DNA from: Phaseolus vulgaris | Taxonomy: Eukaryota > Streptophyta > Magnoliopsida > Fabales > Fabaceae | DNA length: 64,000 bases | Assembly: GCF_000499845.2 (NCBI RefSeq) | Contig: NC_023751.2 | Location: 37,623,309 to 37,687,308, forward strand | Reading direction: 5' to 3' | In this document: positions 3,140-34,681 of the stretch, one piece after another | Layout: each line of letters begins with the position of its first letter | Numbering within the stretch: position 1 is the first letter of the stretch | The notes under the pieces: generated by a model | Seen by the model: the letters and a program-made list of their open reading frames with translations, nothing else | The model's database searches: none | What the model was told of the DNA's origin: nothing | Position numbers and translations under genes: made by a program

Positions 3140-4012
3140 ATGGGAAACATTCACAGTACCAACAGTTACTCTGATCGGTTTCCTCTAGACAATTATTCAG
3201 AGGTTGTCTTCCTCAAAACCAAGAACCGCAAAGGGCGTGAAGTTGTGGACACTTGGAGAGCAGAATACCACTCGTTTGGAAGGACAACCTGCGAACTCCA
3301 ACTCACCAAAACCACATGCAGTAATCACGAAGAAGAACTACGCATCTCAGTCCATGACCACGCAGCAAGCCATGCAAACGACGACTTTGATTTTCAGATG
3401 AACATGAGCGTCGAAGACGGTCTTCTGCTGGCAAACGTTTCTCTGCACGGACCAAGATGCATGCAGCAACTTCCCGAGAGGAAAATCCCTGTGGCGCAAG
3501 GTGGGGTTCTGAAGTCCTCCTCCTTCTTATACGGACGCGACACTGACCGAAAGGGTCTTGTTATCATTTTAAGGGAAAAGAGATGCGATGATGATGAAGA
3601 GCTTCCTCACATGATCACTGTGAAGCACTGGTTTGTGGCTGCGCGTTGTTCGCAAGGTGTCTCTGTTGTGGCAAAGGTTCGCAGTAATGATGGGGGTTTG
3701 AGTGTTGAGATTGAAAAGCCTTCAAAGCATTCGAAAGGTGAGTTGTTGAAGATGTTTGATGATGTCAAAGAAAAAGGGTGGTGCCCTGGAACTACAAGTT
3801 GTGACGGTGGAATGGAGTTTTCGAACCAAAACAATGGTAATGTTCTTCCAGTGATGAACATGAGCGGCCACCAAAACATCTCTTCCCTTTTAAGCTCAGC
3901 TGGATACAATGATGGCAATTACAACGGTTCTGTCATATTTCGTGGATGTAAAATTTTGTTTGACAGTGCCTTTTTTCATCCGAGGAATTGGTCAAATATG
4001 GGGAGCAAGTGA
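3140..4012 (+). CDS. Uncharacterised protein, divergent member of a local three-gene family
   Basis: Single-exon ORF of 290 aa from the ATG at 3140; an in-frame ATG at 3089 would add 17 residues. I prefer 3140 because the protein then begins MGNIHS, a good N-myristoylation consensus (G2, S6), and because the paralogues at 22519 and 33941 also begin near this point (MAGNK). Family resemblance is visible in a P-L near the N-terminus, the LPER(K/E)(I/V) motif in the middle, a VK-HWF / VT-HDF block, a GL-VE(I/V) strand and a closing region ending in -W. About 75 C-terminal residues after that W are unique to this copy. No domain is recognised and no signal peptide or membrane segment is seen; acidic, charged and probably soluble. 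An AATAAA lies at 4041-4046. Function is unknown. The long intact frame supports it as a real gene, but expression is unproven. Confidence 0.6.
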   Translation: MGNIHSTNSYSDRFPLDNYSEVVFLKTKNRKGREVVDTWRAEYHSFGRTTCELQLTKTTCSNHEEELRISVHDHAASHANDDFDFQMNMSVEDGLLLANVSLHGPRCMQQLPERKIPVAQGGVLKSSSFLYGRDTDRKGLVIILREKRCDDDEELPHMITVKHWFVAARCSQGVSVVAKVRSNDGGLSVEIEKPSKHSKGELLKMFDDVKEKGWCPGTTSCDGGMEFSNQNNGNVLPVMNMSGHQNISSLLSSAGYNDGNYNGSVIFRGCKILFDSAFFHPRNWSNMGSK

Positions 4013-4292
4013 AATAGTGTGATATATCTGATAATCAGAAAATAAATAGCAGATGTTTAAGGAATGTGTTGGTATATAAAATCTTTGTTAACGTTTTGTT
4101 TTTTCATTTTTATCAGCTATAAAGATTAAATAAATAATAACTATTTCACCGGTGGTACAATGGTTATACAAAACTATAACTATAACTCATCATTGGAGTA
4201 CAAAACAAAGATCAAAGCTAACCTAGCTAAATAATTAAGATAAATTCAATACTAAAATCAACATTAAATCATATATACATATTAAATCATAT

Positions 4293-5510
4293 TTTTTTTT
4301 ATCAGCAATAAACTATTAAATTAAATCGGTTCACTTAAGGGGTGATCCAACCCTTGTACATATAACAAAAGATAAAAGTTCATTTCCACCATCGTATCTA
4401 AAATTCACAGATTAATCCTCTACTTCCTTTCCAATACTAATAGCTATAACTGAAGAAAAAAACAAATAACACACCAGTATTAAATCGAGTACATACATAC
4501 CAAATGTTCAAGACACCATTCAGAGAATGAGAAACTCACTGAAGGTATCTCTGAGTTGATCCAAGACCAAACATTGACCTGTGCCAAAGAAAATACTTCA
4601 GTATGATCAACCACTCATCCTTTAAACAAACAATTATTCTTGTATCTCCAAATCTCACTGACCAAAGCTATCCAGATATTACCCATAGTAAGATTAACTG
4701 AATGAGGTGCATCAAAAATTTTGAAGTGTTCAAAATGTGACCAGGGAATGATAAGATCAACCGAATTCATTCCAAACCAGTCATAACATAGGTTCCAAAT
4801 TTGCCAAGCTACCCTGCAATCAAAGAATAAATGATTTGTTGACTCCTCTGATAACCTGCATAAGCTGCAAAGATTACACTCAATTTGTATCCCTCGTTTC
4901 ACCAGATTTACCTTGGAAGCTACCTTGTTTTCAATCACCCTCCAAGTTGTGACATGAGCTGAAGGCAACGCTTTAATCCTCCAGAAAGATTTGTAAAACC
5001 TTGAATTTTCCTCATCTCCTTCTCCCTTTAAAAGCCCATAAGCAGACTTGACTGAAAACGCTCTTGTCTCACTATCCTTCCAGACCCATTTATCCCCTAT
5101 CTCTGACTCAATCCTCTATTAGAAATTGTTTCTAAGAGCTGGCTTACTTGATTCTCCTCCCAAGTGAATAAACCCCTTCTCCACCTTAAATTCCACTCCC
5201 ATACCCCATTAGCCTTTGATCCACATTCTCTTATGTTTGCTTCCTTAAGAACAGATAAAGAGAATAACCTTGGGAATCTACTTTTCAAATCTCCAGATGT
5301 TACCCAATTATCTGACCAGAACAAAATGTCTTTCCCATTTTCAACTTCCCAATTAACACAATCTTCAAACTTTCTTCCCCACTTCTCTGAACTTCATACC
5401 TTCATCAAATCTCTCCACCACAAAGAAACTTTGTTACTATCATTATGAAGTTCCTTTAGGCCTCTCCATCCACCGTACTTAGAATTTATTACCTCCCTCC
5501 ATAACCCTCC
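4293..5510 (-). mobile_element. 5'-truncated LINE with 17-bp target-site duplication
   Basis: On the - strand the element ends in 'gctgat' plus a run of A, seen on + as T-run then 'atcagcaataaa' at 4293-4310. It encodes the C-terminal LINE zinc-binding region at 4615-4968 ([15 protein letters not shown]-x2-C, NHLFF-C-VAW) and older coding sequence at 5097-5324. The 17-bp sequence 'tacatattaaatcatat' occurs immediately outside both ends, at 4276-4292 and 5511-5527, a textbook target-primed insertion scar. The copy is 1.2 kb, strongly 5' truncated, with internal frame breaks. It is closely similar to the + strand copy at 18213-18860 and to the inner LINE at 32085-33712. Confidence 0.88.
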
Positions 5511-5527
5511 TACATATTAAATCATAT

Positions 5528-6660: not shown

Positions 6661-6909
6661 AAATGATTATAACTCAAATAGCAGAATTGCTGAATGGAAT
6701 TGCCGAGAAATTTGATTGGGATAAAATAATGGAAGGTGATAAAATTATTGGACTCAAACAGGTGAGTTAAAATTTGAATGAACAAGGATGTGAGGCATTT
6801 CTTTTACAATTACAATTTAATTCATTTGTTTAAATTGCATTGTTATTGATAAAGATTTGAAGTTTTTTTGCACTTTATGTGAACCAGGGGAAGCAGAGCA
6901 TATCATTGG
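6661..6909 (+). pseudogene. Glutamate-cysteine ligase (GSH1) gene fragment
   Basis: Behind an acceptor-like 'tgcag', 6661-6761 translates to a stretch containing [20 protein letters not shown] and KIIGLKQ, followed by a GTGAGT donor. After 126 bp a second acceptor ('accag') precedes GKQSISL at 6888-6909, where similarity stops. KIIGLKQ joined to GKQSISL is, from memory, the continuous sequence of plant plastid glutamate-cysteine ligase, the first enzyme of glutathione synthesis. Only about 40 residues of an enzyme of roughly 500 remain, so this is a non-functional fragment. The retained intron means it was copied as DNA, not retroposed. Confidence 0.75.
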
Positions 6910-7131
6910 ATAAAATATATTATGCAAATTCATCTTTTCTTTTTTACTTCTCTTCTACACAACTGGTAACTGACTATGATTGACATTTTTATTTTTTTTA
7001 GTTAATAGCTATCTTTTAAGAATTTTGTTATATATCTATAGTAATTTTACCTACTTTAGATATTTAATATAATATGCATATACGATAATGCTATAAAGAA
7101 AAGTTAAGGATGTTTTTGGCCATGGTAAATA

Positions 7132-10505: not shown

Positions 10506-13500
10506 ATGGCAAATCAAGAAGAAAAAGCGAAGGATGTATCCAGAGTGTCGGGCTCCTCGTCATCATGGTCGAGGTTCTCGGTGTCCACTTTGAAATTGGC
10601 GGTGGAAATATTTGATGGCACTGGACATTTTGGCATGTGGCAAGGAGAGGTCTTGGACTCTCTTTTTTAGCAGGGTCTTGATATTGCTATTGAAGGAGAG
10701 AAACCAGAAGAGGTAAAGGAGAAAGACTAGAGCATCATCAACCGGTTAGCATGCGGAACTATTTGATCCTGCCTGTCCAGAGAGCAGAAGTATGCTGTAA
10801 AAAACGAGACTTCTGCACACAAACTGTGGAAGGCATTGGAGGACAAGTTTCTGAAGAAGAGTGGTCAGAACAAGCTCCTGATGAAGAAAAGGTTGTTCCG
10901 ATTTGACTACCAGCAAGGTACTACTATGAATGCACACATCACTATGTTTAATCAGTTAGTAACAAACCTGTTGAATTTAGATGTGAAGTTTGAGGATGAG
11001 GATTTGGCTTTGATGTTGTTATCATCTCTTCCTGATGAATTTGAACATTTGGAGACTACGCTCCTTCACGGGAAGGAGAATGTGTCGTTAGATGTTGTTT
11101 GTTCTGCTTTATATAGTCATGAATTGAGAAAGCAGGATAAGATGAAAACCAAATCAACGACATCAGAAGAAGCATTGGTGGCAAGAGGTCGTCAACAAAG
11201 CCAGACAAAGGGGAGAAGAGGGAGGTCTAAGTCTAAAGGTCGAGTCGTTGCCAAATATGAGTGTGTTTTCCATCATGAGAAAGGACACTGGAAGAAAGAC
11301 TGTCCAAAACTGCAAAAGAAAGGGAAGGCTCCGCAAGATGCAAATGTTGCAGAATGCAAAAGTGATGTGGAATCAGATATCTCTTTAATTGTCTCGCTTT
11401 CAGCATCATCGTATCCAGATGAGTGGATATTGGATTCAGGTTGTACCTATCATATGTGTCCCATTCGGGAATGGTTCTTTGAATTTCAAGAACTTGATGG
11501 CGGTGTTGTTTACATGGGTAATGATAATCCTGGGATATGTTCAATCAAGCTGCGAAATCATGATGGATCCACCAGAATTTTCCGGGATGTACGGTACGTG
11601 CCAAAGTTGAAGAAGAATCTCATCTCATTGGGGGCTTTAGAATCTAAAGGCCTAGTTGTTTTTTTTTTATCAGCAATAACAAATATATATATAAAAGAAC
11701 GAACCATTTCAGGGGTGGAACAACCCGTATACAAGGAAAAACATAATCTAATCAACTATCAGACCCTCCAAACCCATCTAGCAAAAGCACCAACCACTCT
11801 AAAAACCTAAATAACATTAAATAACCAAACACATACATTCCAAAGGTTCCAAACACCAGTTGGAAAAGGAGATCGAATTAGTGCTAGATTTTGCATAAAT
11901 CCAAGACCAAACCTTTGCTTGCATCAAAGTACAGACTTTAGACATGTCAACCACTCCCCTATTAAAAATAATAGAGTTTCTGTGAATCCAGATTTCCCCC
12001 ACGACCCCAACCCAAATAGTATTCCACACTTCATTAATCGAAGCAGAGGATGTGTTCATCCTGAATTGGGCAAAATTTGACATAGGGTCATTGTGAGATA
12101 CGAATGACACTCCCAGCCACTTATAACAGAAACACCATACTCGTCAAGCAAAAGTGTAGTCGAAAAACAGGTAGGACTCTTCCTCCTTTCTACACAAACA
12201 TCACAATGAACTTTCAACCAACACCCCTCTTCTATACAAATTAACCCTAGTAGCGATCTTATTTTGCATCACCCTTCAAGTTGTAAATAAAGCTGAAGGT
12301 ACCACTTTACAACTCCATAACTTACTAAAAACCGGAGAAGGATCTGCCTCACAATCCCTCCTAACCAAAGAATAAGCAGAGTTAACTGAAAACCTCTGAT
12401 CACCCCCTCCCTTCCACACCCATTTGTCTACCTCCCCCAAAACCAGTCTCGCCTCAAGTAAAGCCTGACTCAATTGATCCACCATAGACTTCTCCCAATT
12501 GAAAAAAGGTCTGGGCCAGGCTAAATTCCACACCCAAACTCCTTCGGACCGAGACCCGAGCTCAGCCACCCTAGCATTTTTGGCCGAACAAATAGAAAAC
12601 AATATCGGGAATACTCTCTTCAGCGCACCACAACTGAGCCACCTGTCCTCCCAAAAAGAAATATCCTTTCCATCTCCAACTTTCCACTTGAACCCATCGA
12701 TGTGAGATGAAATTCTTAAAGCAACTTCAGGAGCACTGGTGATGTTGAAAGGTGTGAGGAAGAACAATTTGTATTACTATCAAGGTAGTATAGTGGTGGG
12801 GATAGTAGCGACATCAATTTCTAGCACTAAGAAGGATGACAAGGCAACGAAGTTGTGGCATATGAGGTTGGGACATGCTGGAGAGAAATCCTTGTAAATT
12901 CTTACCAAGCAGGGATTGTTGAAAGGTACGAAGGCTTGCAAACTTGAATTTTGTGAGCATTGTGTTCTGGGAAAGGCACTGCAATTCACAATACCAAGGC
13001 TATTATGGATTATGTGCATTCAGATGTGTGGGGACCTGCCAAGACTCCGTCAATCAGAGGTAGGCATTATTTTGTCTCTTTTGTGGATGATTTTTCTAGG
13101 AGAGTTTCGGTGTTTACTATGAAGAACAAAAATGGTGTGCTTGAAATTTTCCTTAAGTGAAAAGCTCAAGTTGAAAACCAAACAGGAAGGAAGATTAAGG
13201 TTCTCCGAACAGACAATGGAGGAGAATACAAGAGTGATCCGTTCTTGAAGGTATGCCAATATTGTGGCATAGTTCGGCACTTCACTGTTAGAAAAACACC
13301 ACAGCAGAATGGGGTGTCGGAGCGTATGAACAAGACACTTGTGGAGAAAGTTCATTGTATGTTGTCTAATGCTGAATTAGGCTGAGAGTTTTGGGCTGAG
13401 GCTGTGACATACGCTCAACATCTCGTCAATCGTTTGCCATCGTCTACTATAGATGGCAAAACCCCGTTAGAGGTATGGTCTGGAGAACCTACAACTGATT

Positions 13501-14422
13501 ATGATTTTTTGCATGTTTTTGGTTCTATTGCATATTATCATGTGATTGAATCAAAGTTGGATCCACGGGCAAAGAAGGCTCTTTTCATGGACTTTAGTCC
13601 TGCAGTGAAGGGATACCGTTTGTGGTGTCTAGAGGCAAAGAAGACGATTATCAACAAGGATGTTACCTTTGATGAATCTGCCATGTTAAAGAAGGTAAAT
13701 CCAGAAGGAGCTGATAGTACTCCGCAATAGGTGGAGTGTGCCCGGAAGCAGGTGGAGTTTGAGCAGACAGTGGTGATCCCAACACGAAATACCACAAGTG
13801 ACTCTCCTATGGCAGAAGAAGAGTCAGATGAGGAAGAGGTTCCTACCCAAGAATCTCAACAGCAATCAGCGCCAATTGCAGTTAGAAGACAGAGACGAGA
13901 TATTCAGAAGCCTGCTCGTTCCATGGATATGGTTGCCTATGCACTTCCAGTTGTTGATGACATTCCATACACTTACCCAGAAGTCATTCTGAGTTCAGAG
14001 AGTGGTAATTGGGCAGGTGTGATAGAAGAGGAGATGTAGTCTTTGAAGAAGAACAAGACGTGGAAGTTGGCACAATTACCAAAAGGTAAGAAGGCAATTG
14101 GGTGCAAATGGGTATTTACAAAGAAAGAATGATTTCCTAATAAAGAAGATGTTCACTACAAGGCAAGGTTGGTTGCTAAAGGCTTTGCTCAGAGGGAGGG
14201 AATTGATTATAATGAGGCATTTTCTCCAGTTGTTAAACATTCCTCCATTCGAATTTTGTTGGCCTTGGTAGCACAGTTGAATTTAGAGCTAGCTCAACTT
14301 GATGTAAAGATCGTGTTCCTACACAATGATTTGAAAGAGGAAATCTATATGACTCAACCAGAAGGATACAAGGTTGCTGGTAAAGAAGATTGGGTTTGTA
14401 AACTTAGCAAATCGTTGTACGG
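10506..14422 (+). pseudogene. Ty1/copia gag-pol, decayed and truncated
   Basis: The frame starts at ATG 10506 (MANQEEKAKD) with stops from 10668 on. In order it shows: gag (10836-11280); a damaged zinc knuckle (C-x3-HHEKGH-x4-C, second cysteine missing); protease around 11430 (WILDSGCTYHMC); an interruption by a LINE at 11659-12706; GAG-pre-integrase (LWHMRLGH near 12850); integrase (DVWGPA, TDNGGEY, QNGVSERMN, about 13020-13330); and the N-terminal half of reverse transcriptase (ARLVAKGFAQREGIDYNEAFSP, about 14160-14420). The sequence stops inside the RT domain at KLSKSLYG. The catalytic YVDD, RNase H and 3' LTR are missing. At least six stops make it non-functional. Confidence 0.88.
11659..12706 (-). 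mobile_element. 5'-truncated LINE inserted in the + copia
   Basis: On + it opens with a T-run and 'atcagcaataac' at 11659-11680, the reversed LINE tail. Coding remnants on - are at 11817-12110 (GVVGEIWIHRNSIIFNRGVV) and 12276-12700 (WKVGDGKDISFWEDRWL, SVNSAYSLV), both typical of the ORF2 C-terminal region. It splits the copia protease/pre-integrase frame: the host frame reads SLGALESKGLVV before and ILKATSGALVMLKG after. I found no clear target-site duplication, so the insertion may have come with a small deletion. Confidence 0.82.
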
Positions 14423-17400
14423 ACATATTGAAGAGCACCCACTGTGGATCTGAATAAAGAGGGATCAGAAAAGGTTGCAGAAGCATTTTGTGGAAGCTTT
14501 AAGTTGGTAATCATAGGTGTAGGTTGTGGATGGGACTCAAGCATTTGCGTTCGTTGAAGAAGACTTTGAACATAGTGACGCTGTGATAAGTGCAAAGATC
14601 CATCTTGGAGAGTGGAGACATCAATACCAAGGAAGTGATGTAGAGGGCCCAAGTCCTTTAGAGCAAAAACAAAACTAAGAGTGGAAATAAGAGAAATAAT
14701 ATCAGTAGGTACAGATCCAGTAATAATTATATCATCTACATAGATGAGAACAAACAAAGAAGAAGAATGAGTAAACCTAACAAACAATGATGGATCACTA
14801 GTAGTGGAATTAAAGCCAAGACTTTGAAGAGTGATACTTAGCTTTGTATACCATGAACGAGGTGCTTGTTTGAGACCGTAAATAGCTTTGTTAAGCTTAC
14901 ACACTAGCTGTGAATTGTTAGAGATAAAACATGGTGGTTGTTGCATGTAGACATCCTCATACAGATCACCATTTAAAAAGGCATTGTTGATGTCGATTTG
15001 ATGAATGTTCCAATGAGCAGACACAGCATGAGCAAGCACCACTCTGATATTAGTATGTTTGATTACAGGACTGAAAGTCTCTGAATAATCAAGACCTTCA
15101 GTTTGACTATATCCCTTGGCCACAAGACGTGCTTTGTGTCGCTGAAACGTGCCATTTGCATTATACTTATTCGTGAAGATCCATTTACAGCCAAGCTCCT
15201 GATGGTAGAGGAGTCAAAGTCCAGGTTCTATTGGCAATCAGAGCACGGTATTCATCTTGCATGACTTGATTCCATTGAGGAGATTGGAGTGCAGCTTTGA
15301 AATTGACAGGTTCAGAAGGCACAGATACAAGAGATGCAGTATATATTTTGGGCTTGGAAATACCAGACTTAGCCCGAGTAGTCATAGAATGAACATTTTG
15401 GTTAGATAAAAGGAACCAAACACTCATTAGTGGTGACAGCAGGTGACAATGTGTGATTGTGTAAAGGTGTTGTGGGCAGAGTAATGGAATCAGAAATAGG
15501 GATGGAAGAGGGAGAGGAAGAGATCACAATTAAAACAGGAGGAGTAATTTGAGACACAGGGGCAACATCAGTGTTAGGTAAAAAACCATATTTTGAAATA
15601 GAATATGGAAAAATATCTTCATAAAAAACTACATGCCTTGAGATATATATTCTACCATCAGGTGAACGACAGATGTAGCCTTTATTACATTGACTATAGC
15701 CAAGAAATAAACAACAAGTAGACCTGAAATTTAATTTGTTAAGATTGTAGGGACGAAGGAGAGGATAACAGGCACAACCAAAACTTTTAAAAATAGTATA
15801 ATTAGGTTTCTTGTGAAAAAGAAGTTCATGAGGAGTCTTACCCTGTATGACAGAAGATGGAAGAACATTGATAATCTGACTAGCAATGAGAAAAGCTTCA
15901 CCCAAAAAATTTATAGGAAGAGAAGCTGCGGAGAGCATAGATAGGCCCATGTCAACTATATGACTATGCTTCCTTTCAATAGCACCATTTTGCTCGTGTG
16001 TATGTGGACAAGTGAAGCGGTGTTGTATACCAGATTCATTAATAAAAGATTTAAAACAATGAAATTCTTTCGCATTATCAGTCTAAATAGTTTTAATTGT
16101 AAGACCAGTTTGATTTTCAGCCAATAATTTGAAGGTTTTGAAGGCAACAAGCGTTTGTGATTTAGAGTGTAACAAATACAACCAAGTGAATTTGGAATAA
16201 GCATCTAAAAACGAAATATAATATTTTTCACCACTTGTAGCATGCATAGAAGCAGGACCCCATATATCAATGTATATCAATTGTAAAGGAAGAGTATAAA
16301 CAGTTGTAGAAGAGGAAAAAGGAAGTTTATGAGCTTTCCCTTGAACACACGCATCACAGAAACCAGATTTAGAAGTACAAGCAATATTACATTGATTTAA
16401 AATGTTTTTGACTACATTAAAATTGCAATGACCAAGTCTGTTGTGCCACAACTGCAGAGCAGGTTTTTCAGATTTAAAGGATGTGTAATTAGCAGAGTAA
16501 GCAGTGGATCTTAGAGCAGGAAAAACGTATAGACCATCTTTAATGATTCCTTGAAACAGAATTTGCTTGGTTACCTGATGTTTAACATAACAGGAATCAG
16601 AGTAGAACTCAAAGAAAACATTATTATCTTTGGCAAATTTGGAAACGCTTAACAAATTTTTATTGAGAGTAGGAACATGTAAAAGGTTTTGTAAAGAAAG
16701 AACAGTGTTAGTAACAGGAGAAACACAAGATGCAGAACCAATATGAGAGATAGACATACCTGCACCATTACCAAGTTTAACATTTGCAGAGCCTTGATAT
16801 TCTTGATTATCAGTAAACAGAGTTGAGTCGTGTGTCATATGGTGAGAAGCCCCACTGTCCGGATACCATAGCGGATCTTCGATAATGGAAGGTGTGCCAA
16901 GAATCGATGGTTCACCATCATCAAGAGATAGAGAAGAAAACGGGGATGTGTTGGCAGTGACCTTGGAAGAAGATGATTTACCAGTCCAATGCCAACATTG
17001 AAACGCATGATGACCAATTTTTGAACACAATTGACAGCGAACCCGATTAGGTTTGCAGGATCCAGAAGGAGAGGGGGTCCAAGAATCACGGTGAAAAGAG
17101 CGAGGTCCATTAGATCGAGAATACCCGCTTGAGGGTTTATGCGGAAAACGACCACCACGGGAGTATTGATTGAACGATGGACGAAAGGATGGGATTTGAT
17201 GATACTGAGAATGAACAAAAGTAGCATTAGCTTGAAAAGAAGAGTGAGCAAGCTTATACCTCTGAAATCGTTCTTCTTGAGCAAGTAAAAGGGATTCAAT
17301 CTCATTGATTGAGTAAGGATCTGTGTGTGACGTAACAGCAACAATAAATGCATTGTATTCTTCTGGTAACCCTTCAAGAATACTTTCAATATGATCTTCA

Positions 17401-17940
17401 GTAGTAATTGGGGAGCCGATTGCAGCAAGCATGTTGACAGCCTTTTTAATGTCATGAAGGTAAACAGAAATTGTTTTGTCATTCTTGGGAGTCTTGAGCA
17501 GCAACTTCATCTTCTGAATTTGAGCACGCGTATGAGAGGCAAACTGTTCTTGAAGACATTTCCAAATTTGCGCCGAAGAATCCAAGCCCACGACTTTTGT
17601 AAGAATCGGTGTAGTCATTGAAGCAAGAAGCCAGGCGATGATAAGCTGATCTTGTTGTTGATATTGAAGAACTTCCTCTGATGGTGAAGAGGGAGAAGAT
17701 GAAGGGGACGAAGAAGGAACCTGATTTCCTTCAAGAAACTTCAAGAGTTTGAGACCACGTATAGTGGCAAGAACTTGATGACGCCAGAGAACAAAATTGT
17801 CTTCATCAAGTTTGAGGTTTATGGGAGTGGTGAATTGCTGAACAGAGGCCATCGGAGAAGAAGATGAAAGGAAAACAGAAGAGGAAGAAGAGGCAGTTGG
17901 GGATGAAGACATGTGTAAAAAAAAAAGGCTCATGATACCA
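14423..17940 (-). pseudogene. Second Ty1/copia gag-pol, opposite strand, truncated in RT
   Basis: Read on -, gag most plausibly starts at the ATG at 17912 (MSSSPTASSSS); the upstream in-frame ATG at 17933 lies inside the primer-binding site. One 600-aa frame (17933-16083) carries gag, a CCHC knuckle (CQLCSKIGHHAFQC), protease (WYPDSGASHHM), GAG-pre-integrase (LWHNRLGHCN) and the start of integrase (YYISFLDAYSKF). After a stop, integrase continues to 15402 (HEQNGAIERKHS, LNKLNFRSTCCLFLGYS). RT follows at 15123-14423 with [22 protein letters not shown] and the catalytic [11 protein letters not shown]. It ends at GALQYV; the rest of RT, RNase H and the far LTR are gone. It has few stops and is better preserved than its + strand neighbour. 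Confidence 0.9.
17927..17940 (-). promoter_or_regulatory. Primer-binding site of the - strand copia
   Basis: On - it reads 'tggtatcatgagcc', a variant of the initiator-Met tRNA binding site. It abuts the LTR end 'ttaaca' and precedes gag. Confidence 0.8.
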
Positions 17941-18212: not shown

Positions 18213-18860
18213 CTTGGAGGGTGATTGAAAACAAGGTAGCCTCCAAGGTAAATCTGGTGAGACGAGGGATACAGATTGAGTGTAATCTTTGCAGCTTATG
18301 CAGGTTATCAGAGAAGTCAACAAATCATTTATTCTTTGATTACAGGGTAGCTTGTCAAATTTGGAACCTATGTTATGACTGGTTAGGAATTAATTCGGTT
18401 GATCTTATCATTCCCGGGTTACATTTTGAACACTTCAAAATTTTGGATGCACCTCATTCAGTTAATCTTACTATGGGTAATATCTGGATAGCTTTGGTCA
18501 GTGAGATTTGGAGACACAAGAATAATTGTTTGTTTAAAGGAGGAGTGGTTGATCGTACTGAAGTATTTTCTCTGGCACAGGTCAAGGTTTGGTCTTGGAT
18601 AAACTCAAAGATACCGTCAGTGAGTTTCTCATTCTCTGAATAGTGTCTTGAACCTTTGGTATGTATGTACTCGATTTAATACTGGTGTGTTATTTGTTTT
18701 TTTCTTCAGTTATAGCTATTAGTATTGGAAAGGAAGTAGATGATTAATATGTGAATTTTAGATACGATGGTGGAAATGAACTTTTATCTTTTGTTATATG
18801 TACAAGGGTTGGATCACCCCTTAAGTGAACCGATTTAATTTAATAGTTTATTGTCGATAA
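18213..18860 (+). mobile_element. Short 5'-truncated LINE
   Basis: It starts at 'cttggagggtgattg' and carries the zinc-binding region as an open frame (18221-18643; [34 protein letters not shown]). It ends 'tttattgtcgat' plus an A-run. It is nearly identical along its length to the reverse complement of 4293-4960. A short repeat 'ttgatta' is present just before (18205-18211) and just after (18873-18879), a possible but weak 7-bp target duplication. It landed directly beside the copia LTR. Confidence 0.85.
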
Positions 18861-18879
18861 AAAAAATAAAAATTGATTA

Positions 18880-19147
18880 TATATCTTTGATGTAACTGGT
18901 CCTTCAGATCCGTTGTGTAACTGAAGCTGTCCTGAAAGTTTGTATAAATACGTGATATGTCTAAAGACAATAAAAATATTTGCTACTTTGATGTTTTCTT
19001 TACAATCCACCTAAATTTTATGAAACCCGGTCTTAAAGATTAACAAGATAGCTAGGTTTTATTTTACCATCACATTGTGTACAACTGTTCTCTTACAAAG
19101 ATAGAATGTTTATTTGAATGTGGTTTTCTGTTGTTTTCATATTTTAT
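18880..19147. other. No recognisable feature
   Basis: Between a LINE tail and the next LINE tail; no coding or repeat signal seen. Confidence 0.4.
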
Positions 19148-22364: not shown

Positions 22365-22416
22365 TGTGCGTAGGTTCAGTTTTTGCTTGTGCGTAGGTTC
22401 AGTTTTTGCTATAAAT
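22365..22416 (+). promoter_or_regulatory. Core promoter of the 22519 gene with duplicated 23-bp box
   Basis: A 23-bp unit 'tgtgcgtaggttcagttttt' plus 'gct' is present twice without a gap (22365-22387, 22388-22410) and runs straight into a TATA-like 'tataaat' at 22410-22416. The paralogue at 33941 has one copy of the box (about 33829-33848) before 'ctataaagg'. The position about 100 bp before the ATG suits a plant core promoter. Confidence 0.6.
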
Positions 22417-23286: not shown

Positions 23287-24779
23287 GGAGTGGAAATCTT
23301 TTATAAAATAATTAAACTAAATATATTTGAATTTTAAATTATTAAGTAAAAAAAATGTAATTTAAATATTATTATTTTGAGTCGTGTGTATTTTTTTATT
23401 ATGTATGTCAAAATATAATCACTAAACATCTCAGGATTACTTTTAGTGAGTTTAGATATATGTAAATGGAATGGATTACCCTGTATTCCTAATAACAAAA
23501 AATACCTTAAGGGAGTGAATAATATCTTTGTTACAAAATTTATTGAAGATTCAATGTGTATATTTTGCATGTATAACTATTAAAGTATTATAGAATTCCA
23601 CTAGTTTATTTGTTATTTATAAAATGTATTCTCAATCAAAAGAAAACAAATAATAGAAAAAGAGATCACTTCAATTCTAAAATTATTTTTTTATAAAATG
23701 TTTGATATAAAAAATATCACCCTATGAAATATAACCAACAAAGTAGTGTTGGGGTTAGGTTCTTACAACAAGTTTAAAATTAAAATGGAAAACTATGAAC
23801 ACAAGTACTTCAACATCTAACAACATATTTTAATAGTTCTTCTCTCCGTTTCATTCATCTTCTCGATCACTGTATGAAGTCTTTTGGTTTTTTATAAGGT
23901 TTTTTTTTTTCACTTAAACCAATCCCTTCTTTATTTTAAGCACAAATTCACTTATTTGCATTCAGCATGAATATTATCTACGAATTTGGATTCTGAATTA
24001 CTAATGATATCAATGCATGGGTATTACTCATGATATTAATCAATGGGTATTATCTGTAGATATACATCCACCCATATATATAGATCCATGGATATTACTC
24101 CAAAGATAAAGATCCAAGGATATGGATTTATGTAGATAAATTTATGTACGAATCTAGTTGTATGTAAATTTATTCATGGACCTATATGCATGACTAATAT
24201 TAATAATATTTTTTATTAATTTATTAATTATTAATAAATGTTATTTTTATCATTAATATTAATCTTTTTATTAATATTGTTAGTATTGTAATTAATGTTA
24301 ACTAATATTTTAAATATCTTTATGTCATTATTTTTCAATGTTATTAATATTATTATTAGTGTTATTATTAATAATAATAATATCAACATTATTATTGGTA
24401 TTGTTATAACTCTTGAAGAAATAGTATTCCTCCCTTTACAAAATATCTCTCTATAATAATATATATTAGAATTTTAAATTAAAAAAATATATATTATTTT
24501 AAGTTATCAAATGTGTATTTTCTGTATAATGAATCAAAATATCACAACTAAAACATCTCTGAACCTTACTACAGCTTTAATAATATAATAATACATATTA
24601 AAATTTTAAATTAAAAAATAAAATAAATATAATTAAAATATTATGATTTGCAGTTGTCAAATGTGTATATGATGAATGTAAAAATATAACAACTCAAACA
24701 TCTCCGAGATGAGGTCTGATGATACTGAATAATGTCTTTTATTACAAAAAGTTTATTAAAGATTCAATGTGTATACAAG
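23287..24779. repeat. 3' flank of copy A, part of the segmental duplication
   Basis: AT-rich and gene-free. 23290-23460 matches 34681-34790 downstream of copy B, 23770-23860 matches 35240-35310, 24110-24380 matches 37350-37680, and 24440-24779 matches 37860-38195. The region between 23860 and 24110 is where copy B instead carries the foldback element. 'Dinucleotide-like' runs of 'attaatatt' fill 24200-24400. Confidence 0.75.
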
Positions 24780-24861: not shown

Positions 24862-27065
24862 ATGGCTGATACTTCGTTTTTCTTCACTAATATTCTGCCT
24901 GGTCATGAAGAAAAGGAGCTTTGGAATATTTTTTAAAGACGGGGTAGAGTTTTGGATGTTTTCATACCCAAAAAACTTAATTATAGAAAACAACGCTTCG
25001 GGTTTGTGAGGTTCCAAGGGGTGAGGGATGTTTGTGAGTTAGAAAGAAGGTTGGATGCTATTTGGATTGGGTTATGGAAATTACGTGTGAACATAGCCAG
25101 ATACCGTAAGAAAGAACCGCCAAAGGAAGCGCGTAATCAGAACCGGAGGGTGGAGGGCTCTAAAAAAGTTTGGAGCCAGAAGGAGATGCACCGTTCATTC
25201 ACAAAAGTGGTTATGTCTGGGAGTGCGAGTTTGCCTCAGGGAAAAAAGAGTGATGGTGAACAAAAGGAGCTCGAATTTGATTTGCCTTGTTTTAAGGTGG
25301 ACGTGGAGCCATCATTGTTGCTCGAGAGTTGTTTTATTGGGAGGTTCTTGGAACTGTCTAATTTTCAGGCAGTTAAGGAGAGTGTTGTGGTGGGTGGTTA
25401 TGGTTCGTTAAGTCTTAGCTATCTTGGAGAGAATTTTATGCTGCTAGCTGGTGATGGTGAGATTTCTGTCGCGAAGGTCATTGATGATAACAAAGAGTGG
25501 TTAAGGGATATCTTTGATTCTCTTGTCCCATGGGATAATTCTTTCTCCGTCTCTGGTAAAAGTTGCTTGGGTTCGAATTAGGGGTTTACCATTGATGTTT
25601 TGGAATAGACAATGCTTTGAACTCATTGGGGAGTTAGTAGGAAAGTTTATTGAGGTGGATGAGGCGACGGAGGCACGAGAGATTATTGAGTTTGCTAGAT
25701 TACGGATCAAGATTCCAGCGGGCGGGAATGCAAATGTGGTAAAAAGTATTATTATAAATGATTATCGGTGTCGGATAACCTTTGAAGAAGATACGTGTCA
25801 TCGTTTTTCTCAGCTTGGTTGCAGTAAGTGCATGGAATGGGGGCAACTGTCTGAGGGGAGTTCGGAGGCACGCTACTTAGTCACTGATGATGAAGATGTG
25901 GTTGAGTCCGTGTTTTTGGACATTGGAGGAGAAGATGATGGAGCTAAGGGCAACTTAGTTTTATTAGAAGATCCAGAGTTCATAGATTTTTCTTCTAAAG
26001 TTGGTGTAGACCTAAAAGAGGGAGTAATGACTGTTTTGGGAAGCCAAAACAATGAGTGGGAAAGGTTGGGAAGCCAAAACCGTGCATGGGAAAGAATGGA
26101 GATGGGCGGCGCATTTAAGGGGGTCCAAAACCATGTGTCAAGTGGTGTAAATGAGAGTAGTTCTGGAAAAGAAGGGGGGTGGTCTGATGAGTTTTTCTGT
26201 GTTGGGCCTACTTTGGCCCAAGTACACGTGGTTGGTGGGGCGGAGCAGCCATTGGTTTCAGACCCATTTGCAGACGTGGCAGACCATGTAGGTTTCCTTG
26301 CAACATGCGACTTTGGGGTGGGCGGAGAAGTGTATCCAAGCGGCGTTGCCCTTGGTGGTACGCCAGCCAGCGACGACGCGGTGGCTCTGACAATGTCAAA
26401 TACTCTACCTACGAAGGGGTGGTCGAATAAAGCGGAGATGAAGGTTGACGGCGACACCGTTAGTTACGTCAACGATAATAGTGACGACGCCTCTTGGGCA
26501 CCTACTGGGTGCGTCGCCGTGTGACGAGGTGGCAGCGGCACCCGTTTATAGAGACAAAGGGCTCGAGGTCACCGGCGGAAGAGGTCTAGGTTACGACGAG
26601 CATTTGGGTGGTTCGCCGGCGGTGGAGGGTTTGTCTGCAACGGCGGACGGAGGAGAAGTTGACGGTGCTAATAGGAGTGTCGGGAAGGAGTCAGTAGGGG
26701 CGGTTGAGATGGTGTTTTCGACGGAGGCAGCAGGTGGAAAAAGACTTGGCAACACTTTATCTAAAACCAGCCTTAAGAATATGAGAAAGAAAGTCGCTCT
26801 GTCCTCGCTGGCGGGTAAAAGGTTAGAAACTACTGTCTCTTCTATTTCTGACAATGATGTAAGGAACTGTAATAATCGTTATTGGCTGGAAAATAAGGAA
26901 TCGAAAGCCCAAAAAATTTGGAACATGGGAAAAGTTTTGGGGTTTTCGTTTGCTGGGAAGGAAGAAGTGGTAGTTAAAAATTTGCAAGCCTTGGAAGCTC
27001 GGGACAGAGATAACATGTTGCTCAAAAGGAAGGAGAGTGTAGTTTCTGATGATGAAAATAATTAG
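24862..27065 (+). pseudogene. LINE ORF1 (RNA-binding protein), frame-broken
   Basis: ATG at 24862 (MADTSFFFTN). A TAA interrupts after ELWNIF, then RRGRVLDVFIPKKL and the RNP-like RFGFVRF show an RRM-type fold at the N-terminus. A frameshift near 25565 moves the reading frame to VRIRGLPLMFWNRQCFELIG (the plant LINE gag-like domain), which runs to 26524. A second shift near 26460-26520 leads into a basic region ending at 27065. In a working LINE this protein coats the RNA for target-primed reverse transcription. Confidence 0.82.
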
Positions 27066-30000
27066 TTTGAATGTGAAGGGGTTAGGAGGAAGTAACAAAA
27101 GAAGATATCTAAAGGAGTTGATTTTCAAAGAACAGGTAGGAATGGTGTGTATTCAAGAGACTAAGTGTTCTGAGTTCGGAGAAGAGAATTGCTTCAATAT
27201 GTGGGGTTCTAATGAAATAGACTGGATTGAAATTGGGTCTATCAATAATGTTGGTGGGATTATTACTTTATGGAGGAGGAGTTGTTTCCATTTATTAAGC
27301 TCTGTTAATGGGAATAATTTCTCGATTATTGAAGGGGTATGGAAGGTTGGTGACGGAGTAAGAGTAACTATTGTGAATGTTTATAGCTCAGGTTCTCTGA
27401 AGGAAAAGAAAGCGAGTTGGGATGAAATTAATGCTCATAGAGCGTGTCAGTTAAACAGGATCTGGTGTGTAGTAGGGGACTTCAACTCAATCAGAACAAA
27501 GGAGAAGAGGAAAAGTTTGGCTATGGGCTTGAATTATAATAGAGAAATGCGGGATTTTAATGAGTTTATTGGAAAGGCTGAATTAATAGACATTCCGATG
27601 GTTGGTCAGAAATTCACTTGGTATAAACCGAATGGTACTGCTAAAAGTAGAATTGATAGAGTCCTTGTCTCTAAGGAATGGATGGAGGAGTGGTCGAACA
27701 GTAAGTAGTTCGTACTTAGTATATCTATTTCAGATCATTGTGCTTTGGTAATTAAAGATTCCTGTCCAGATTGGGGTCCGAAACCTTTTTGCAGTCTGGA
27801 TGTCTGGCAAAAAGACAACAAGTTCCGAGAGTTTGTTCGAAGTAAATGGCTTAGTTATGAAGTTTACGGTAGGGGTTTGTTTGTCTTCAAAGAAAAATTG
27901 AAGAAGCTAAAATATGATTTAAAAGTATGGAACAGAGACGTGTTCGGAGATGTTAATCTGAAAGGGGAGATTTTAAAAAAGAAAATTGAGGATTTTGATG
28001 CTCGAGATGATGCTGGTGTCTTAGATGAGGAAGGCAGAGTGGAGAGGAGGTATTTGCTAGCAGAACAAAATGAAAATGCTTTTAGACAAGAAACAATTAT
28101 TCATCAGAAAGCTCGCCTTAAGTGGTTAAAAAATTGTGACCTTAATTCAAAGTTTTTTCATTCGACTGTTAAATGGAGGAGGGCAAGAAACGGAATTAAT
28201 TGACTAGTAGTTGATGGTTGTGGAGTGAAGATAAGGAGGTGGTTAAAGGTAAGGTTAGGGACTTCTTCAATGCCAGATTTGAAAGTGTTGATGGGCTTCA
28301 AGTCAGGTTGGATAATGTGCCTTTCAATTCTATCTCTGCTGCTAATAATGAGATGTTGGTCAGTACTTTCTCCGAAGAGGAAGTCAAGGAGACTGTTTGG
28401 GATTGTGAAAGCTCGAAAAGTCCTGGTCCGGATGGATTTAACTTTGGGCTCATCAAGTTTTGTTGGGAGTTTATTAGGGAGGATATCCTGCTGGTCGTAA
28501 ACGATTTTGCTATAGTCGGAAAATGGCCTAGGGGGACAAATGCGTCGTTCGTGTGTCTGGTCCCTAAGCTGGAGAATCCACAAAGTTTATGTGATTTTAG
28601 ACCTATTTCTCTGGTTGGATGTCTATATAAGATCATACCGAAGTTGCTATCTCTGAGGCTTAAAAAGGTGATGAGTAAAATCATTGACTCGAGACAGTCT
28701 ACGTTTCTAGCTGGTAGGGAATTTTGGATAGTGTGTTGGTGGCCAATGAAGTCTTAGAGGAGGCAAAAAGGAGGAAGAAGAACTGCTTATTTTTCAAAGT
28801 GGATTATGAGAAGGCTTATGATTCGGTAAGGTGGGATTTCATCAGTTATATGCTTGAAAGATTAGGTTTTTGTGAACAATAGATTGCTTGGATTAAATCT
28901 TATCTGGAGTCTGCAACGGTATCTGTGTTGGTTAATGGCAGTCTGACTAAGGAATTCGTTCCTTCAAAGGGTTTGAGACAGGGTGATCCTTTGGCTCCGT
29001 TTCTTTTCCTTGTTGTAGCTGAAGGTTTAGCAGGAGTGGTAAGGAATGTTGTCTTGTTTGACTGGGTGGAGAGTGTGGAGGTTGGGAGGAATAAGGTTAA
29101 GGTTAATATGCTTCAGTATGCAGATGATACCTTGTTCTTCTGCAAAGCAACAACCAAAAGTGTTTTCTGTTTAAAATCTATTCTGACTTGCTTTGAGCTG
29201 GCTTCAGGTCTAAGTGAACTTTCTGAAGAGTAGTATTGGAGGTGTGGGGTTGATACTTTCACGATCAGTTGTTTCGCAAAAATGCTTAACTGTGAAGTGA
29301 TGAATTATCCTTTCAAGTATCTTGGGTTTCCTGTTGGGGGATGTCACAAAAAGGAAGCGTTTTAGGATGGGGTGGTTGAGAAGATAAAGGAAAGACTGGG
29401 AAGATGGAAAGGCAGATTTATCTCGATGGCAAGAAGAATTTGTCTGATTAAATCTATTCTCTCTGCTATCCCCTTGTTCTATACGTCTTTGTTTAAAATC
29501 TCTGCTATTGCTAGGAAGAAGATTGTGAAAATTCAAAGAAACTTCCTATGGGGTTGGAGGTCAGGTGGGCGAAAGATTGCGTGGGCTTCTTGGGAGAAGG
29601 TGTGCGAACCCCGTGGAAATGGTGGTCTCGGGGTTATTAATATTAAATTTTTCAACATTGCTTTGTTGGGGAAATGGATTTAGAGGTTGGGTTTTTCCAA
29701 AGGTGGTCTGTGGGAGGAGGTGGTAGAATCTAAGTACGGGGGTTGGAGAAAGTTGAAAGGGCCAAGTTCAAAAACGATGGGGTCCCTTTGGTGGCGGGAG
29801 CTAAAGGCGATTTGGTCGATGGAGGAATGGGGGAGAGAGTTCGACGACCGTTTCAATTGAAAAGTCGGTAATGAGAAGGAAATTAGGTTTTAGGAAGATA
29901 AATGGGTGGGCGATTTGGAGTTGAAAAACAAATTCCCAAGGTTATACTCTCTTTGTAGGGATGAAGATGAGTTGTTGGAATGTTGTGGGGTCTGGGAAGA

Positions 30001-30124: not shown

Positions 30125-30383
30125 GTTGTTGTTCTTTTTGCCCCTTGTTTTGGTTGCAGTAAGTTTGTATTGGGTTTGTTTTGAGTTTGTATGGGTTTGT
30201 TTTGAGTTTGTACGGGTTTGTACGGGTTTTTTAGTGGTAGATTTTTTTGTCTCTCTCATTTTGTTGGTTTAGGAGACCTGAAATTTGATTCATATTATAT
30301 AGGTACGTATAAGGGTTGACTCACCCCTTAAATGGTTCCTGTTATTCAATTCTTATTGCTAATAAAAAAAATGTGTATACAAG

Positions 30384-31272
30384 ACTTATTTAGTGGTATT
30401 ACTTTTTTACATTTTTAACTATTAAAGCATTCTTAAATAATTCTAAAAGTTATTTGCTATCTATTAAATATGTTCTAAATTAAAATAATAATAAAATAAT
30501 AGAAAGAAAGATCACTTCCATCCTAAAATTATTTTTCTTTGATTTTAAATTTGATATACAAAATATTGCACCTATGAAATATAAACAACAAAGTAGTAAT
30601 GAAGAGTTTTATAAACTGATTTTATTAGGTCGAGTTAGTCTTAAAATTCAGTTCTTAATAAAAGTTTTTTCTAACATAAAAATCGTAGTAAGTATTTTCA
30701 AATAAAAAATCATTAAATAGAAATCAATTTTATATGAAAAAATAATTAATTATTATATTAACTAAATTAGTTTTTATTATTGATAAATAATTTCTAAATT
30801 AATTTATATTTAAATGATTTTCCTGTAATAATATTTTATTTTATGTCGTTATGGAAAATCTAAGTCCATGAATGCACGTTTCTCTTTAATTGGAAAACAA
30901 AAAATAATTCAGTTTTCTTCCTTTTAATTTTCCGAAATTAAAATATTAAATATCAAGTTCTCATCTAGCCAGAAAGAGAATAAACGCAATAAGAAGAAAA
31001 GAAATATAAGAATTATACTCCCACTGTGATTATTCTATTAAGATCATAAAGGATAGATGCTCCTTTCTAGCATGATATTGATAATTATAATGTATTATTC
31101 TATATTGATAATATAGGATCGATTCTCTTTTTTTATTGGATACAATATATTATTTTCAATTTAGAAAAAAAATATTTTGATAACTTTCTACCTATCTTAA
31201 TTTGACTATTTTAAATATATATATATATAAGTAAATTTTAAAACACCATCACTTTGTTCAAGATAAGAAAAA
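30384..31272. repeat. Flank shared by the two gene copies, with a decayed MITE
   Basis: No gene. 30384-30600 continues the copy A 3' flank and matches 38195-38420. About 30697-30832 ('aaaaatcattaaatagaaatc' ... 'aatgattttcctgtaata') is a decayed relative of the CACTA-type MITEs. 30950-31270 is the third copy of the promoter-side repeat described at 20619-21072 and leads toward copy B. Confidence 0.65.
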
Positions 31273-32084
31273 AAAAATAATTATTTTTTATCAGTAAAAA
31301 ATAAATAAATAATAAAGATATTTCAAGGATACTTCAATCCTTATACAAGTAAGTCATCATGTGATTCCAAACATAAAACATATCAAAGACAGAATTCCAA
31401 ATCAGATTAGAGTAGCACAATCATAACAACCTAAGACTTCTAACATCCAAAAATAAAATCAACACAAAAACTAATCCAAACTAACTACATATATCTATCA
31501 ACATACCTTGCAATTCATCTAAACCCATCTTTTGTTTGTTCAACCACCTAAAGCTTTATGATAGATTTCATGCATATCAGCGGCTTAAGGCACCAGTTAG
31601 AATACGATAAGCTTGCAAGACGAACCTTGAAAGTCACCCATGACCAAACCTTCAATTGTGTCATTATGAAAGTCTCAATATGGTCTATCCTACCATTTTT
31701 AAAAATGATATTGTTCCTATGCTTCCACAATTCGTCTACCACTGTTATCCACACACATTATCAAATCTGATTACCAATTTTATTGAGTCCACTCAACTTA
31801 AAATTTATAAAATGCCTTTTTGGTTCCCAATGATTTGTCGACGCTAACCCTATCCACTCATAGCACATAGACCACATGAGTCAAGCAACTCTACAAGTGC
31901 AAAAAACATGGGACATTGTTTCCTCTTCCTCCCCACACAAACTGCAAATGTTACTTACTATACTGATCCTTATTCTCTCCAAAATCGCTTTAGTCGCTAA
32001 CTTATCTTCCATGACCCTCCATGTTGTGAAGTGAGATGAAGGTTACCTTTATCCCCAAAAAACTCTAATACATGGTCACTTCTT
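31273..32084 (-). mobile_element. LINE 3' fragment (outer element of a nest)
   Basis: On + it begins 'attattttttatcagtaaaa', a reversed LINE tail, followed by the 'caatccttatacaag' signature. On - it has a coding remnant (31548-31754; VDELWKHRNNIIFKNGRIDH). Another LINE tail starts at about 32085, so this piece is either interrupted by, or adjacent to, that element. It replaced the paralogous promoter sequence found at 21250-21485 in copy A. Confidence 0.72.
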
Positions 32085-33712
32085 CTTTTATCGGCAAGAA
32101 GCAATACAATTAAATAGACCCACTTCATGGGTGGTCTAACCCTTATACAGAATACAAGAGTTCAAAGAGTACTTTTCCATATACATATCAAACCAAAATG
32201 TAACCTCCTACTGTCTGCCTCAACACTACCAACTAAAGTAGAATTAGAAATATCAAGGATCAACCCTTATAAAGACATTAAATCAAATGCATACATACCA
32301 AGGGTTCTAGGCACCCGTCAGAGAACGAGAAGCTCGCTGACAGTATCTTTGAATAGATCTAGGACCAAACCTTAACCTGTGCTAGGGAAAAAACTTCAGT
32401 ATGATCAACCACTCCACACCTTTAAATAAACAATTATTCATGTGTCTCCAAATCTCACTAACCAATGCAATCCAGACATTGTCCATAATAAAATTAACTG
32501 AAGTAGACGCATCTAGAATCTTGAAATGGTCAAAATGAGACCCAGGATCAATAAGGTCGACCGAACGCACCCCTAACCTGTTATAACAATTATTCCAAAT
32601 TAGCCAAGCAACTCTACATCCGAAGAACAAATGGTTTGTTGACTCCTCTGGTATCCTGCACAAGCAACAAAGATTGCTTTCGACCCCTATACCTCGTCTC
32701 TTCAGATTTACCATACAAGCAACCTTGTTTTCAATAACTCTCCAAGTTGTGACTAGGGATGACAAAGCGAGGCGGGCCGTGCAGGCCGGCCCGCAGCCCG
32801 CTGGTAAAAAACGCGAGGCGGCTTAACCTTTTCAACCCGCTAACCCGCAAGAAAAAAAATGGATGAAAGTTCTTCTAAGACGGCATCCAATGTTATTGAA
32901 ATGGAAGAATGTCAATAATGTTTATGTTTAATGTTTTTGAATTAATGTTTATGTTTAATGTTTTGGAATTAGGTATTTTTAATGTTTTGGAAGTGGAAGA
33001 ATAGTGATATTTGATATTTATCTTAATGTTTAATGTTTTGATGTTTGACTATGTTTGAAAAGGAAGAAAAAAAATTTATGTTTGATAGTAACAAATATAT
33101 AGGTTTAATTTGATAATTTCTTAAGAACAAAATGTAAACAAAAAAATTATAAAAAAAAAAAACGCAGGCTGGCCCGCAAACCCGCGGGCCAACTCTTATG
33201 CGGGGCGGGTCGAGAATTCTAGCCCCTAGTTGAGACGTGAGCTAAAGGAAACACCTTAATCCTCCTGAAAAACTTGTACCTTCTCGAGTCTTCCTCGCAT
33301 CCCTCTCCCCTTAAAAATCCATAAGCAAACCTAACTAAAAACTATGCTGACTCACTATTCTTCCAAAACTCATTTGTCTGCTTTTTCCAACTCAAGCCTC
33401 TGGTTGGAAATCATCTCTAAAAGTTGGCTTGCTTGATCCTCCTCCCAAGCAAAAAAACCATTTCTCCACCTTAAATTCCACTCTCAGCATTAACCCATAT
33501 TTTGAGAATCACATAGATTTGCCTCGATAAGAAAAATAACATCTACTTTTGAAGTCTTTTACATCTACTTTTGAAGTCTTTTTGAGAATGCCCATGCCCA
33601 ATTATCTGACCCCAAAACTGAACATCTTTCCCGTTTCCAACCTTCTAATTCCGACAATCTTCAAACTTCCCTCCTCAAACCTCCAAACTTTCATTAAATA
33701 TCTCCATAAAAA
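32085..33712 (-). mobile_element. LINE (inner), split by a hAT-like element
   Basis: The tail at 32085-32110 ('cttcttttatcggcaag') is followed by the 'gggtggtctaacccttatac' signature. The zinc-binding region is at 32382-32750 ([28 protein letters not shown]). After a 475-bp interruption, homology to the LINE at 4970-5460 resumes from 33237 to about 33712. 5' truncated and decayed. Confidence 0.8.
32754..33228. mobile_element. hAT-like non-autonomous element (475 bp) with 8-bp duplication
   Basis: Starts 'tagggatgacaaagcg' and ends '...attctagccccta', giving imperfect inverted ends TAGGG(A/G). Its termini are strikingly GC-rich ('ggcgggcc', 'cccgcgggcc') around an AT-rich core. The host LINE sequence is split at 'gttgtgac' (32746-32753), which is repeated as 'gttgagac' (33229-33236), 7 of 8 bases. 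An 8-bp duplication and these ends are typical of plant hAT MITEs. No coding capacity. Confidence 0.8.
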
Positions 33713-33940
33713 AATATAACTTTGCTAAATACATCCAATGGATAAGATTTTCTAGGTCTACGATTAGAGATGCTCTTCGTGGTTCTTTTAACATATAATT
33801 CTTTGCCTTCTTTTAACACTTGGAATCTGTGTGTAGGTTCAGTTTTACCTATAAAGGAACATGCATGCAGGAAGACCGGATTAGAGTCAGAGAGCTGAGA
33901 GAAAGAAAAAAGGTTAGAGTGAGAGCAGACGTTAAAGACA
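33713..33940 (+). promoter_or_regulatory. Promoter region of family copy B
   Basis: Collinear with 21485-21595 and 22330-22518 upstream of copy A, but without the LINE fragment that splits copy A's promoter. It contains 'tgtgtgtaggttcagtttt' once (about 33829) and a TATA-like 'tataaag' near 33850, about 90 bp before the ATG. Confidence 0.6.
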
Positions 33941-34681
33941 ATGGCAGGAAATAAGAGCGTTGTGAGGTTCATGTCTAGCGGTTATCCGTTGGAAGTGAAC
34001 ACCAAAATGCAGAAATTGGAAGATGAAGATGGAACCACCGAGTTCACATACTCCCTCGGTAACACCCACGTAACTATGAAGATAACCGAAAAGATTTGCT
34101 CCTCCGGTGGTGTAAAACAAGTCTACATCGACCTCTTCGAGAACAGTGGCAAGGGTTCTTTCGCTAATCTGAACCTGCGACTCTCGGAAAACAAGAGGTA
34201 CGGCATTTTATGCAATTTCATGAACACTACGTTCGGGGGGTCCTATAATTCGATTAAGAATCATTACTACGCGCCACCTTTACCTGAGAGAGAAGTGGTT
34301 CGTTACTATAGTCTTGAGAGTGGTTGCGGAGGGTGTTTCACTCTGGAGAAGAAGAAGCACGAGTATGGTGTGGTGGTGAGGGTGAAGGCCACGCACGATT
34401 TCATCGTGGGCGAAGAGACCATGCACGTGAAAGTGAAAATAGGGTATGATGATGGTGGAAGAGAAAAAGGGTTGAATGTTGAAGTGGATGGACCAGTGAA
34501 GCTTACGACGGAGTATGTGAACTACGTCGTTTCGAGATCGGAGAGGAAGATGTGGACTGCGATTGAGGCAAGTAACGACGCCGTTGAGACCGGGCGCAAG
34601 GGTATAACAATGGCAGTTCGAAACCCAACCCTAAAACAAAAGGAAAACTCAATCGCCTTACAAAATGATATTACATATTAG
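33941..34681 (+). CDS. Uncharacterised protein, family copy B (246 aa)
   Basis: Intact single-exon ORF beginning MAGNKSVVRFMSSGYPLEVN. It follows the 22519 protein closely through the LRLSENKRYGILCNFMN, YYAPPLPERE, ESGCGGCFTLEKKK and THDFIVGEETMHVKVKIGY blocks. It is one lysine shorter in the KKK run and differs at scattered sites. After SRSERKMWTAIEASNDAVE the C-termini part: this copy ends NPTLKQKENSIALQNDITY. The changed tail suggests a deletion or frameshift in one copy. Domain and function are not recognised; see the 22519 entry for shared traits. Confidence 0.72.
   Translation: MAGNKSVVRFMSSGYPLEVNTKMQKLEDEDGTTEFTYSLGNTHVTMKITEKICSSGGVKQVYIDLFENSGKGSFANLNLRLSENKRYGILCNFMNTTFGGSYNSIKNHYYAPPLPEREVVRYYSLESGCGGCFTLEKKKHEYGVVVRVKATHDFIVGEETMHVKVKIGYDDGGREKGLNVEVDGPVKLTTEYVNYVVSRSERKMWTAIEASNDAVETGRKGITMAVRNPTLKQKENSIALQNDITY

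Follow-up and report, generated by a model that had tools for sequence, protein, structure and literature searches.

Introduction

The systems closest to the genes reported here are PF26678, a Pfam family that is itself uncharacterised, the molybdenum cofactor biosynthesis protein F (MoaF) and the N-myristoylated peripheral membrane proteins of plants. A further fold considered is the Tubby/LURP-one-like one, in which a barrel of 12 strands encloses a C-terminal helix. With all of these we compare three genes from a 64,000-nucleotide stretch of Phaseolus vulgaris (contig NC_023751.2, positions 37,623,309 to 37,687,308, forward strand), referred to as the window and numbered from its first letter. 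Going by their sequences, the three genes form two related subfamilies in one P. vulgaris array, with type A represented by P0001 (3140..4012, + strand, 290 amino acids with a Met-Gly-Asn start) and type B by two copies, P0002 (22519..23286, +, 255 amino acids) and P0003 (33941..34681, +, 246 amino acids).

We propose that they belong to a two-branch family of the tribe Phaseoleae with A and B genes in tandem, the products of which would be binding barrels, membrane-tethered in type A and soluble in type B; we regard this proposal as evenly balanced between right and wrong. If right, it would equip a small family, seen among the major food legumes in common bean, pigeonpea, soybean and the relatives of cowpea and mung, with a fold, a probable membrane anchor and an architecture of pairs, and make an anonymous Pfam entry accessible to experiment. 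Lineage-specific, unstudied tandem families are common in plants, and in its general kind this one is ordinary.

Sequence and homology analysis

The original prediction of three intact single-exon genes was borne out: all three open reading frames are uninterrupted and run in a single frame, with the lengths and positions given above. A tblastn search of the window with 49 family proteins (E <= 1e-3) returned exactly three places, which are the three genes. The proteins from 3140 and 33941 are listed as PHAVU_009G255500 and PHAVU_009G255600, and the product of the 22519 gene has a near twin in the annotated P. vulgaris protein P0028 (98% identity). Relatives were collected in three homology searches at E <= 10, which gave 25 rows with the 3140 protein, 21 with type B and 45 in the third, using a method that requires shared five-residue words and which remoter relatives may therefore escape.

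When the 3140 protein was the query, 24 of the 25 rows, P0001 included, carried a precomputed PF26678 assignment, so that the family is catalogued though uncharacterised, and the earlier suggestion of something undescribed is not supported as it stood for type A, at least at the level of an accession. As only one of the 21 type B rows carries PF26678, and neither P0003 nor P0028 does, type B, as a sister branch, falls for the most part outside this entry, and current annotation of the family mostly misses it. A Pfam scan of the three window proteins gave nothing above cut-off; the Pfam copy scanned does not list PF26678. In the library of papers searched, none names PF26678, any of 12 locus names or the prefix Phvul.009G255, and among the papers listed by topic no title or abstract opening deals with the family, which is thus catalogued and, as far as the searches reach, unstudied.

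The relation between the types is marginal in pairwise BLAST (E 0.003 and 0.039 for the 3140 protein against the other two) and becomes clear with profiles. The best B protein outscored all 3400 shuffled decoys under the A profile, and the best A protein all 4200 under the B profile; the signal was strongest in the second half of the proteins, and a B profile restricted to the first half also beat its decoys. These cross-searches with hidden Markov models indicate homology beyond chance, which upholds the predicted tandem family with one divergent member. That A and B are instead unrelated families lying side by side, with motifs in common by chance, would suit the weak pairwise E-values, the hhalign probability of 18% (E 0.0013-0.0014) and the single PF26678 assignment among the 21 type B rows; we consider it distinctly unlikely, since none of the 3400 and 4200 decoys reached the best cross-profile scores and since the structural models of both types, described below, resemble each other in their all-beta meander and C-terminal helix and have one and the same protein as their single best structural match.

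The motif order ascribed to the three proteins is for the most part correct. PL, H-x-F, GL-x-VE and the proline after GL-x-VE are aligned across both types. The alignment of LPER depends on the method (aligned between the types in hhalign, offset by about 6 residues in MAFFT), and in one type A branch LPER is mostly replaced by LP[QMV]CK. A terminal tryptophan characterises type A (18 of 21 rows), and the only type B rows to have it are the two window copies (2 of 22), though the columns of both types coincide in the joint alignment. An internal duplication of the barrel, the halves of which look alike by eye, was rejected, as half-versus-half profiles within A and B did not beat decoys (the best score was attained by 118 of 4200, 67 of 4200, 65 of 3400 and 20 of 3400 decoys).

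A tree was built from 41 of the 49 proteins, leaving out P0015, P0025-P0027, P0043, P0044, P0048 and P0049 (fusion model, alternative models, fragments). It separates A from B with a support of 1.0. Type A falls into three subgroups (support 0.99, 1.0 and 0.94), each with Phaseolus and Sphenostylis members and two of them with named Vigna proteins. The 22519 and 33941 genes form a cluster (0.92) whose closest relative is P. coccineus VNO80_20396 (0.99).

Evolutionary analysis of the type B pair

The two type B copies, described earlier as near identical, proved to be sister copies with differing C-terminal tails and an identity of 84% over 230 positions; the tails differ through divergence and indels past about codon 210. 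The ratio of nonsynonymous to synonymous divergence (dN/dS) between P0002 and P0003 is 0.94 over 244 codons, 1.73 for codons 1-200 and 0.52 for the codons after 200. Taken alone, the averaged dN/dS would fit no constraint.

The distribution of the changes was analyzed on positions at least 90% conserved among the other type B proteins, of which there are 70 in 212 aligned core positions. Of 30 amino-acid differences between the copies in this core, one falls on a conserved position, compared with 9.9 expected (P=4e-5); with thresholds of 80% and 70% the counts are 4 against 14.6 and 12 against 19.5 expected. Conserved codons show one change in their 165 nonsynonymous sites, as compared with 24 changes in 344 sites that are synonymous or in the flanks (P=0.0008). 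At variable codons, 36.3 changes in 335.5 nonsynonymous sites stand against 7.7 in 135.5 synonymous sites, an excess that is not significant (P=0.12); depending on the codon alignment, the synonymous changes number 7.7 in 135.5 sites or 6 in 136 (codons 1-215). The conserved residues are kept at 67 of 70 positions in P0002, 66 of 70 in P0003 and 82 of 87 in the type A gene. As the changes avoid the conserved positions, the core is under constraint, with the rest of the protein drifting or diversifying. The earlier argument from open frames to selection thus applies to the conserved positions and not to the averaged dN/dS, which is not below 1. A dN/dS near 1 combined with an absence of transcripts had been named beforehand as telling against the family; the first half of this applies to the averaged value of the pair, which is near or above 1, but the conserved positions show constraint.

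The averaged ratio, together with the transposon pieces and the relics lacking coding sequence (CDS) around the genes, would also fit dying or neutral duplicates whose frames are open by chance. This we hold to be very improbable in view of the single change on conserved positions, the retention of conserved residues in all three genes and the full-length relatives across several genera.

Copy-specific changes were counted for the 22519 versus the 33941 gene with four outgroups, giving 22 versus 5 with P. coccineus P0029 (P=0.0015), 16 versus 1 with P0030 (P=0.0003), 14 versus 5 with P0035 (P=0.06) and 9 versus 5 with P0034 (P=0.42), so that the 22519 copy is the faster-evolving one with two of the four. 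A fast-evolving defence or symbiosis family, in which the conserved barrel is a scaffold for variable positions and tails that diversify under pressure from pathogens or microbes, would account for this asymmetry, for the high rate of nonsynonymous change at variable codons, for the variable tails (with repeats seen by eye in P0031, P0034 and P0037), and for a tandem array with lineage-specific copies and CDS-less relics of 3' flanks. Given that the excess at variable codons and the asymmetry with the other two outgroups are not significant, and that tandem arrays in plants are common for many functions, this explanation is possible and on the whole doubtful. Gene conversion between the B copies was considered and rejected: in realigned flanks, 16 of 208 sites differ as compared with about 5 of 128 synonymous sites (P=0.25), an earlier count of 41 of 204 being a tandem-repeat artefact.

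Start codon and N-terminal motif of type A

Upstream of the ATG at 3140, the frame stays open for 17 codons until a TAA is reached at 3086; this interval contains a GTG, at 3089, but lacks an ATG. As plants as a rule initiate at ATG, the protein starts at 3140, and Gly-2 stands; a start at 3089 without Gly-2, which had been raised as a possible objection, would have to use this GTG. The ATG has an A at -3 and a G at +4. Three upstream ATGs (3012, 3052 and 3124) are out of frame, the last of them 16 bases before the start codon.

The first residues (3140..3160, +) match an N-myristoylation-type start with Gly-2 and a small residue at position 6, in the form of PROSITE PS00008. Of the type A rows 22 of 25 show this pattern, as compared with 1 of 22 type B rows; the count leaves out the fragments P0048 and P0049 and includes two pairs of type A rows that look like alternative models of one gene. 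With Gly-2 in a permissive context and the motif kept across type A, the fit to N-myristoylation seen in the 3140 protein is corroborated, and type A is probably N-myristoylated at Gly-2. A cysteine at position 4 of P0006 and of P0011 could be a site of S-acylation.

Distribution and co-location

The named sources of the relatives, several genera of which have full-length members, are Phaseolus, Vigna, Sphenostylis, Cajanus, Glycine, Mucuna, Canavalia and Clitoria; with one species per genus checked, 8 of 8 belong to the tribe Phaseoleae. The sole named relative from elsewhere is P0048, a type A fragment on a 790-base contig filed under a metagenome-assembled genome of sweet potato little leaf phytoplasma; most likely this is DNA of the plant host that was binned with the bacterium. 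By sequence, then, the family appears thus far only in the bean tribe.

Ten of 16 distinct type B contigs also bear type A, where location on the same contig is derived from equal contig size, and four of the ten are small (20,046, 73,666, 93,336 and 210,148 bp). Neighbouring annotation numbers were found in Cajanus (LOC109791098 and 099), P. coccineus (20388, 20391 and 20396), V. mungo (007170 and 007177) and P. vulgaris (020361, 020365 and 020370; also 255500 and 255600). In soybean, one gene model joins a type A protein to the final portion of a type B protein. Three proteins located on other or different contigs, P0025 of V. mungo and P0015 and P0027 of soybean, tell against a strict single locus.

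Structure prediction and proposed function

AlphaFold models were obtained for one protein of each type. Both show an all-beta meander with a C-terminal helix, predicted as a beta-barrel plus helix for residues 10-212 of P0001 (3167..3775, +) and residues 19-213 of P0003 (33995..34579, +). In P0001 a Gly/Asn-rich C-terminal tail follows (residues 217-290; 3788..4009, +), which has low confidence in the predicted local distance difference test (pLDDT <50) and is partly conserved among type A. A viral structure library, searched with the type A model only, contained no match at E <= 0.001, and a sequence search of solved structures gave no match for P0002 and only insignificant ones for P0001 and the joint profile.

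From the observed family, its branches and co-location, the start codon, the conserved motif and the constraint on the core, combined with the predicted fold, we infer the following arrangement. In each protein, about 12 strands would form one antiparallel beta-barrel that has a C-terminal helix and, after it, a variable tail. Type A would carry myristate at Gly-2 and be placed thereby on the cytosolic face of a membrane, and type B, without anchor, would probably be soluble in the cytosol. Judging from the type of fold alone, the barrel may bind a small hydrophobic ligand or a partner protein, which type A would present at the membrane and on which type B could act in the cytosol. Because the two types stay side by side, they may cooperate, perhaps on the same ligand or partner.

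Several results weigh against this proposal. The averaged dN/dS of P0002 and P0003 over codons 1-215 is 1.46 (bootstrap 0.69-5.0), with 82% of the replicates at or above 1. In the comparison of A with B, the hhalign probability is low, as given above, and 73 of 3400 decoys reached the score of the best B first half under a profile of the A first half. The confidence of the models is middling (pLDDT 64.9 and 67.8; predicted template modelling score 0.65 and 0.60), none of the 957 and 891 Foldseek matches of the two models in the PDB reached E <= 0.001, and MoaF is absent from the 10 Pfam families listed for 19 members at E <= 10. Six of the ten contigs with A and B are chromosome-sized, where sharing alone tells little. 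Finally, 3 of 25 type A rows (P0023, P0025 and P0027) lack Gly-2 and have unrelated sequence at their starts; P0049, a relative of P0027, has a longer start followed by an internal MGNIHSS, which suggests that these exceptions are wrong gene models.

Flanks and neighbouring sequences

A TATA-like TATAAG (3041..3046, +; motif match only) lies 99 nt 5' of the type A ATG. The type B copies have about 110 bases of upstream sequence in common (8 mismatches in 106 aligned bases), in which motif matches to TATAAA occur 109 nt 5' of the copy 1 ATG (22410..22415, +) and 91 nt 5' of the copy 2 ATG (33850..33855, +). A tandem duplication of about 23 bases upstream of the 22519 gene (22365-22412) is absent from the 33941 region. 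Further copies of the type B 3' flank without CDS were located with blastn at 37868..38433 (+; both modules in order), 24575..24775 (+) and 30397..30598 (+; second module only), which is compatible with relics of lost gene copies or, alternatively, with a local repeat.

Between the genes lie two Copia-type pieces on opposite strands (10881-17933; gag, Pol beta-barrel and reverse transcriptase domains) and, in our reading, LINE-type pieces (25595-27708, +; DUF4283 and an endonuclease domain). They would suit an origin of the family as a domesticated transposon product, as would the occurrence of some copies on other contigs, namely P0025 in V. mungo and, on two contigs, P0015 and P0027 in soybean. 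Such an origin is barely credible, given that no Pfam transposon domain was found at E <= 10 in the three window proteins or 19 members, and that the copies are few and mostly on one contig with other members. A 437-base stretch 3' of the type A gene (4264-4700, +) recurs in inverted orientation at a distance of 14 kb with 94.5% identity (18459-18895, -) and once more at 32083-32500 with 73%; it is probably a transposon remnant. Adjoining the array, exons at 39235-39393 and 40660-40737 (+; span 39235-40737) presumably encode portions of a small, RPB9-like RNA polymerase subunit of the zinc-ribbon kind, an ordinary conserved gene. A frame of 625 amino acids at 45372-47249 (-) gave no Pfam match at E <= 0.001; it resembles part of a bromodomain/WD-repeat type gene.

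Comparison with known systems

Among the matches listed, MoaF (PDB 4q51) is the best, solitary and moderate structural match of both models. The match spans most of the barrel in either case, but the identity in the structural alignments is 11% and 7%, with root-mean-square deviations of 4.5 and 4.8, and no link of the bean family to molybdenum was seen. An unlikely extension of our proposal would be descent from a calycin- or MoaF-like ancestor not otherwise known from plants in such a role, with a lipid-anchored form at the membrane and a soluble form in the cytosol sharing a ligand and with exposed positions changing fast through microbes. With the Tubby/LURP-one-like fold, the strand count and the C-terminal helix of both models roughly agree; none of the 50 matches listed in each structural search is of this fold, an absence which does not tell against it. 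From the N-myristoylated peripheral membrane proteins of plants, the window trio differs in having no Pfam domain above cut-off, with weak matches only among 19 members, and with this class type A shares the Met-Gly-Asn start and the small residue at position 6, both conserved within type A.
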